From Archaeoglobaceae archaeon (GTDB lineage Archaea; Halobacteriota; Archaeoglobi; Archaeoglobales; Archaeoglobaceae): DNA of 64,000 nt. This document shows, piece by piece, positions 48,455-58,212 of the stretch. How positions within the stretch are numbered: position 1 is the stretch's first letter; every line of letters starts with the position of its first letter. Under the pieces are notes generated by a model, which worked only from the letters and a program-made list of their open reading frames with translations, did no database searches and was not told the origin of the DNA. Both the position numbers and the translations under genes were made by a program. The stretch lies in contig JAMOPJ010000018.1 of assembly GCA_027064525.1 (NCBI GenBank), positions 1 to 64,000 on the forward strand. Reading direction: 5' to 3'.

Positions 48455-48508
48455 CCTCAGCCGCAGGAAATTTCATCACAGATCAGAGCGACCGAAACTC
48501 ATCATCGG
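48455..48508 (-). ncRNA. C/D box guide RNA (2'-O-methylation)
   Basis: All four boxes are present on the minus strand at canonical spacing: C ATGATGA (48505-48499), D' CTGA (48486-48483), C' GTGATGA (48479-48473) and D CTGA (48460-48457). The two guides are 12 bases each, GTTTCGGTCGCT and AATTTCCTGCGG. The D'-C' gap is three bases. By the N+5 rule the methylated target bases would be A in AGCGA and A in CCGCA. A CTTTTTTAAG box around 48532-48541 predicts a start ~26 bases downstream, at CCGATGATGA. Target RNA was not identified. Confidence 0.88.
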
Positions 48509-56384: not shown

Positions 56385-57556
56385 AAGCCTAAGAGCTTTG
56401 CCAAGTTGTGCTTGATGACCTCCGGGATGTTTATGCCCGTTAGCTGCATAATTACGTAAGCCCCGTATATCGTCCCGATCATGCTTCCGACATTCGTCAG
56501 AGCGGCTACGAGCAAGATCCTAAAAATTCTATTTTTCATGAGTTCTCGAAGGGTTTCCGCCGTAGCGAGATCTTCTAAATCTTGAGAGGTCGGCTTTCTT
56601 ATCTTCGCCTCAACTATCCCAGAAACCCAGCCGGCCGCGATCATAGGATTTAGAGATGTAAGCCAAGCTGAAAGGAACGCCGCTAAGGCTGAGAGAGGAT
56701 GCCCACCAGCTATAAGGGCTCCGATTGCGGAAAGGACACCGTTTATCAAAAACCAGTAAAGGAAAGCTTTAGCTATGACTTCCGAGTTCATCGTCGATAG
56801 AACGGCCACGAAAGTCAGAATTACGAACGCAAATATCGTGAAACTTGCGATTTTTAGGATACTGAATTTACTCTCTTTAACGCTTTCGAGCTCTCTTATA
56901 TCTGGTAGAAGTTCTGGGTTTCTCAGATACTTCTCTATCCCCTTCTTATGACCAGCTCCAACGACTGCTACTATTTTCTCATATCTCTGTGAAGCTTCTA
57001 TCAGCTTTGCCGCCATGTATGCATCCCTTTCATCTATCAAAACCTTCGCCGCCGAAGGTGCAATATCTCTAAACTCCTTGACCAATCTCTCCAGTATGTC
57101 CTCCTTCAGCATCTCATCGACATCTAGCTCCTCATCACCAAACAAACCCTTAAGCATGTGGAAAAAGAGTCTGACCTTTTCGATAAAGGATAGAGAACCC
57201 CAAAACCTCTTGAACGTTATGGCAATATCCCTGTCGATTAATAGAACATCCGCTCCGATCTCCTTCGCCTTCTCTATCGCTGCGAGCATCTCCTCTCCTG
57301 GCTTGACCCCGTATTCTTCTCCGATCTTTCTCTGGAAGTATGAGAGGAGCATTTGGAACAGAACGAGAGCTACATCGCCCCTCTTTATCACGTCGATTAC
57401 CGATATCTCTTGAGGTTTGTTCCGAGTTAATGCGAGGAACCTTCTGTAGCAAAGCTCAACCGCCACAGCTTGCGGCTTAACTTCTTCGACAGTTTTTTTT
57501 ACCTCCTCTATACTTTTCTTGGATACGTGAGCTGTTCCTACGAGGATTATTTCCAT
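56381..57556 (-). CDS. TraB/PrgY family protein
   Basis: The 391-residue protein has the TraB start GTAHVSKKSIEEVKKT, a conserved ELCYRRFLAL and VVGAGHKKGI. The C-terminal half has four or five membrane helices (FTIFAFVILTFVAVLST, LIAGGHPLSALAAFLSAWLTSLNP). In Enterococcus, PrgY limits pheromone activity. The archaeal role is unknown, and a membrane peptidase-like activity is suspected from the family fold. Its stop overlaps the Lrp relic by four bases, convergent. Confidence 0.88.
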   Translation of the reverse strand: MEIILVGTAHVSKKSIEEVKKTVEEVKPQAVAVELCYRRFLALTRNKPQEISVIDVIKRGDVALVLFQMLLSYFQRKIGEEYGVKPGEEMLAAIEKAKEIGADVLLIDRDIAITFKRFWGSLSFIEKVRLFFHMLKGLFGDEELDVDEMLKEDILERLVKEFRDIAPSAAKVLIDERDAYMAAKLIEASQRYEKIVAVVGAGHKKGIEKYLRNPELLPDIRELESVKESKFSILKIASFTIFAFVILTFVAVLSTMNSEVIAKAFLYWFLINGVLSAIGALIAGGHPLSALAAFLSAWLTSLNPMIAAGWVSGIVEAKIRKPTSQDLEDLATAETLRELMKNRIFRILLVAALTNVGSMIGTIYGAYVIMQLTGINIPEVIKHNLAKLLGF

Positions 57557-57605
57557 CGGGTTTAGCGGTGCGTTAAGTCTATTATACTTTCCGATGAAAT
57601 GTCTG

Positions 57606-57664
57606 CGGGATGATGAAGTCCCCTGAGCGCTGAGAGGTGATGAATCAGGGGCTGTCTGACTTTT
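57606..57664 (+). ncRNA. C/D box guide RNA (2'-O-methylation)
   Basis: All boxes are at canonical spacing: C ATGATGA (57611-57617), D' CTGA (57631-57634), C' GTGATGA (57638-57644) and D CTGA (57657-57660). Guides are AGTCCCCTGAGCG and ATCAGGGGCTGT, and the D'-C' gap is three bases. A second CTGA at 57624 lies in the first guide. The guides are complementary over CCCCTGA/TCAGGGG. ATTATACTTT (57581-57590) lies ~25 bases before the 5' end, and a CTTTTAAAA run follows. Target RNAs were not identified. Confidence 0.88.
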
Positions 57665-57696
57665 AAAAATAATAAATAAATTTTAATAATTTATAA

Positions 57697-58212
57697 TTAT
57701 AACTTTATTTTTCTAATAAAGTATAGGATCAGCACGATACTTATTAACATCAAAGTTAAACCTGACAGTAGGTGTATTTCTGGAAATGTTGGGGCTGGAG
57801 TGGGAGGTGGAATTGGGGCAGGTACTGGGATTCGAGTTGGGACTGGAATTGAGGTTGGTTTAGTTGGTTTAATTGTCAAGAACCTGTACACTTCGAACGA
57901 TCCCACCAACGCACTCGCTATGGCGGAGGATAATAGCAAAATAATCTTTGTTAGGTTATCAGGATGTAAAATTTTCCTGCCCTTTTCTGTAAGCTCATAG
58001 TATATCCACTTTCTACCTTCATCAACCTTTCTAATAATTCCAGCCTCTACCAGCTTATCGAGATGCTCCTTAACAGTTGTTTTTGACATATTTAGACTTT
58101 CTGATAGCTCTGTTAGTGTCATTCTTCTCTTATCTAACTTCTTAAGTATCTCTATCCTCGTTTCGGATGCTAAAGCGAATAGAGCTTTTCTATCGATAAT
58201 GATCTTGCTCAT
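57697..58212 (-). CDS. Membrane-anchored ArsR-type regulator
   Basis: The 171-residue protein has an N-terminal winged helix (ALASETRIEILKKLDKRRMTLTELSESLNMSKTTVKEHLDKLVEAG, wing KVDEGRKWIYYELTEKG). A membrane helix follows (LTKIILLLSSAIASALVGSF), then a Pro-rich linker (PTSIPVPTRIPVPAPIPP) and a second helix (LLSGLTLMLISIVLILYFI). The linker probably lies outside the cell. GGTGAAAGCT precedes ATG 58212. The upstream exported-protein gene overlaps the longer frame, so the two are co-transcribed, possibly as sensor and partner. Confidence 0.82.
   Translation of the reverse strand: MSKIIIDRKALFALASETRIEILKKLDKRRMTLTELSESLNMSKTTVKEHLDKLVEAGIIRKVDEGRKWIYYELTEKGRKILHPDNLTKIILLLSSAIASALVGSFEVYRFLTIKPTKPTSIPVPTRIPVPAPIPPPTPAPTFPEIHLLSGLTLMLISIVLILYFIRKIKL

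Follow-up and report, generated by a model that had tools for sequence, protein, structure and literature searches.

The locus studied here raises the question of why the two guides of a single C/D box sRNA should be complementary to each other. It lies within a 64,000-nucleotide stretch of an Archaeoglobaceae genome (the window), a family also indicated by the nearest named relatives of a neighbouring gene. The initial annotation offered two answers, namely that the two targets are themselves complementary, perhaps as strands of one rRNA helix modified together, or that the RNA folds on itself. Our preferred reading, which we consider probable, is that this RNA is a double-guide C/D box 2'-O-methylation sRNA directed at a single hairpin of 23S rRNA, presumably helix 66, and that its guides would be mutually complementary because their targets are.

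Results

Anatomy, locus and conservation of the sRNA

The sRNA occupies positions 57610-57659 of the forward strand and displays, by its box pattern, a textbook archaeal C/D organization, with RUGAUGA and CUGA boxes in order and guides of about 10-13 nt. Box C (ATGATGA, 57610-57616; consensus RUGAUGA), invariant in five genomes, is followed by the D' guide AGUCCCCUGAGCG (window letters AGTCCCCTGAGCG; 57617-57629), box D' (CTGA, 57630-57633), a GAG spacer, box C' (GTGATGA, 57637-57643), the D guide AUCAGGGGCUGU (window letters ATCAGGGGCTGT; 57644-57655) and box D (CTGA, 57656-57659), just 3' of which interspecies conservation drops; the terminal stem is weak. The complete C/D'/C'/D pattern occurs once on the sRNA strand and in none of 100 shuffles of the window, and the window contains no Rfam match at gathering score. 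A fibrillarin gene is present in the genome. These boxes and guides are the ones described in the initial annotation, whose span (57581-57670) exceeds the RNA and takes in promoter-like upstream sequence.

The sRNA is flanked by two reverse-strand genes named from their translations, one TraB-like and starting at 57556, the other encoding an ArsR-type regulator and ending at 57697. An AT-rich TATA-like element, CTATTATACTTTCCG (57575-57586, with no strand assigned), is invariant in the five genomes; some 25 nt separate it, on the reverse strand, from the start codon of the TraB-like gene and, on the forward strand, from the expected sRNA start. It would be suitably placed for both, and this spacing suggests that it is possibly a shared bidirectional promoter, in which case the TraB-like mRNA would be leaderless.

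The sRNA is kept with intact boxes in four congeneric genomes, that is, in five genomes of one genus in all, and three guide variants occur among them: that of the window species, that of G001-G003, and that of G004. Searches for orthologues outside the genus using the D guide pattern, with and without the C' box, or the perfect D' complement as query, returned no further C/D-like RNA. Matches L166 and L172-L177, from other genera, do not have the boxes and were rejected as orthologues, as were the weak matches L006 and L007, other C/D sRNAs that have only the boxes and the linker in common with this one. In these searches, the sRNA thus appears confined to one genus.

Complementarity between the two guides

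The complementarity pointed out in the initial annotation is real: CCCCTGA in the D' guide and TCAGGGG in the D guide form 7 uninterrupted complementary bases, or 9 pairs with one bulged base. Among 30 C/D sRNAs read from loci of this genome, three of which are overlapping parts of one array, this run is the longest, the next best being 6, in one sRNA. A run of 7 was reached by 0.35% of shuffled guides, and runs of at least 7 by 3 of 870 guide pairs (0.34%) swapped between the sRNAs of this genome; by chance, one such 7-base case among about 30 sRNAs has a likelihood of about 10%. Taken alone, guide complementarity is only modestly unusual and constitutes weak, suggestive evidence, and it gains weight because of the target matches.

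Target of the D guide

The 23S gene of this genome is absent from its assembly, so targets were sought in the congener G004 and in three other genera; the helix 66 target segment is identical in the 23S of all four genera compared. The best site of the D guide is ACAGCCCCUGAG (G004 23S 1936-1947), on the 3' strand of the helix, with 11 contiguous Watson-Crick pairs. None of 500 shuffled guides equalled this match in the 23S, and whichever of the three guide variants is used, the site ranks first among about 4,500 16S and 23S positions; secondary sites, 16S 328 for instance, have lower scores. The run of 11 pairs (9 with the G001-G003 guide, both measured on the G004 23S) includes the +5 nucleotide, and the double-guide criterion of Dennis et al. 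(2015, PMC4644070) sets a minimum of 9 consecutive Watson-Crick pairs that cover this nucleotide. The predicted target can be regarded as solid, and the D guide is predicted to methylate C1940 in G004 numbering (E. coli 1823).

Candidate target of the D' guide

The best rRNA site of the D' guide is AACACAGGGGGCU (G004 23S 1903-1915), on the 5' strand of helix 66, which ranks first over all 16S and 23S positions for the three guide variants, the predicted methylation site being C1907 (E. coli C1790). Over the whole 23S its score is unexceptional, shuffled guides reaching it in 57%, 22% and 15% of cases for the three variants, and shortening the window's own guide to 12 nt is enough for the helix 66 site to be narrowly displaced from the top rank. 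A match as good as this one, at most 10 nt from the partner strand, is made by only 0.1-0.3% of shuffled D' guides. The corresponding rule for D' demands 9 consecutive Watson-Crick pairs in its strict form and allows G:U pairs and one mismatch in its relaxed form (PMC4644070); the G001-G003 guide fits the strict form, and the window and G004 guides fit only the relaxed one. In all five species an A·A mismatch is found at D' guide position 4, beside the predicted modified C, and because of this fixed mismatch methylation through D' appears doubtful; the D' guide may only clamp its strand. We consider the candidate D' target weaker than the D target. The case for it depends on where it lies with respect to the D target, and this partly follows from the resemblance of D' to the complement of D: if D copies the 5' strand, any complement of D would also match that strand.

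Three features of the D' guide bear on whether it is aimed at rRNA or only complementary to the D guide, two of them in favour of rRNA. Five pyrimidines of D' face five G of the rRNA 5' strand, and four G of D face four C of the 3' strand, in both cases with no bulge, whereas D':D pairing requires a bulge or ends early; these run lengths seem to favour rRNA over guide-guide pairing. The predicted D':rRNA duplexes are likewise the more stable for the three variants (-17.4/-20.1/-17.9 vs -14.6/-12.5/-15.0 kcal/mol for D':D). All five species carry at position 4 an A that is mismatched to the rRNA but finds a pairing partner in the D guide; this would point the other way, that is, away from rRNA as the aim of D'.

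Position of the two predicted targets on one 23S helix

In the archaeal LSU model of Rfam the two targets pair with each other (GGGGGCUG/CAGCCCCU; 1909-1916 with 1937-1944), and in this structure the D and D' targets lie on opposite strands of one helix, C1940 being within the paired strand and C1907 just outside the modelled stem. From alignment to E. coli we take the hairpin to be helix 66 (domain IV), a contact site of ribosomal protein L2. The proposal that the guides address two complementary targets on one rRNA helix is therefore largely borne out at the level of best matches in the congener: sought in 16S and 23S, both targets were found, as opposite strands of one 23S helix rather than on unrelated RNAs. 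As for proximity in general, D and D' candidate targets lie within 150 nt of each other, by a lenient score, for about two thirds of the genome's other sRNAs.

Other C/D RNAs

A second C/D box sRNA was observed in the window on the reverse strand (48457-48505), with guides matching 23S near 229 and 191. Elsewhere, a stretch with head-to-tail C/D boxes and four guides (G000:C22:42216-42324; L121, L225) looks like a multi-guide C/D RNA; its guides 1, 3 and 4 match 23S near 366, 524 and 422, and it is conserved in three congeners, while another genus retains part of it. Three further C/D sRNAs with alternating strands are packed into fewer than 200 bases (G000:C2:7868-8050; L106-L108).

Discussion

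The box anatomy, the conservation, the best-match targets and the pairing of these targets in the rRNA model are observed; expression, RNP assembly, methylation, simultaneous binding and a chaperone effect are inferences, which could be combined as follows. On nascent rRNA, the D guide would pair with the 3' strand and direct methylation of C1940, and the D' guide would pair with the 5' strand around C1907; the bound RNP would hold the two strands apart yet adjacent, and on release these would close as helix 66.

Among the alternatives, the one we take most seriously, although we judge it unlikely, holds that only D works on rRNA, at the helix 66 3' strand, and that D' is aimed at tRNA-His, where it would direct methylation of C13 in the D arm, the fit to the helix 66 5' strand being a by-product of a shared CAGGGG. 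Archaeal C/D sRNAs matching tRNAs are known (PMC7994747), and with the tRNAs of G000 and G004 the D' guide forms 9 contiguous Watson-Crick pairs (10 with the G001-G003 guide) and no mismatch at position 4. By the same score, the tRNA-His D arm is a better match than rRNA for the D' guides of four species out of five. The fifth guide, that of G004, has two G:U pairs with tRNA-His, which is no longer its best tRNA match, whereas its rRNA match persists; moreover, guide positions 11-13 remain compatible with rRNA and not with the tRNA, and the best tRNA score is reached by 18%, 7% and 57% of shuffled guides. A variant of the double-guide reading is improbable in our estimation: a strand-exchange chaperone that would clamp both strands of helix 66, methylate only via D, and discharge the rRNA by self-closure of its guides, with the conserved mismatching A acting in the release step.

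Self-folding would also account for complementary guides, the sRNA adopting an inactive or regulated form and the D' match to rRNA following from the resemblance of D to the 5' strand. The initial annotation was right in that such a fold can form, since the minimum-energy structure contains the CCCCUGA/UCAGGGG stem, and the A that mismatches the rRNA pairs with the D guide. However, the fold is no more stable than those of shuffles (z -0.32), the guide-guide duplex is weaker than either guide-rRNA duplex, D':D being weaker than D':rRNA in all variants, and in G001-G003 one D':D pair is weakened to G:U (TTAGGGG); we see only a slim prospect for this explanation. Slimmer still is that of coincidence, by which a real C/D sRNA happens to have complementary guides nearly matching one helix. 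A single 7-base run would turn up by chance in about 10% of genomes that carry 30 sRNAs, but the D match greatly exceeds chance expectation, all three guide variants have their best D' rRNA site on the partner strand, and the sRNA is conserved in five genomes.

As a double guide on helix 66, the sRNA would offer a compact and conserved test case for the proposal that double-guide C/D sRNAs not only guide methylation but also act as folding chaperones, with one sRNA addressing both strands of one short hairpin and a D' guide possibly binding without methylating. Dennis et al. (2015, PMC4644070) count about half of their 489 sRNAs as double guides, and the sRNA described here resembles those known in having two guides, standard boxes and spacing, and targets within 100 nt of rRNA; it differs from them in that its two targets base-pair with each other, which entails complementary guides. 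Its closest likeness is to sR17 and sR15 of Nanoarchaeum equitans, archaeal C/D sRNAs whose D and D' guides likewise fit the two opposing strands of a single rRNA helix, in that case 16S helices 28 and 30, and for which a chaperone role was proposed, joining the strands and releasing them for folding after methylation (Dennis et al., 2015, PMC4644070). Those helices unite 16S strands hundreds of nucleotides apart, whereas the present targets belong to a local 23S hairpin with strands about 20 nt apart and involve no long-range bridging. Opposite-strand double guides are thus already published, and the present sRNA would add to them a 23S case that involves a local hairpin and, in these searches, is confined to one genus.
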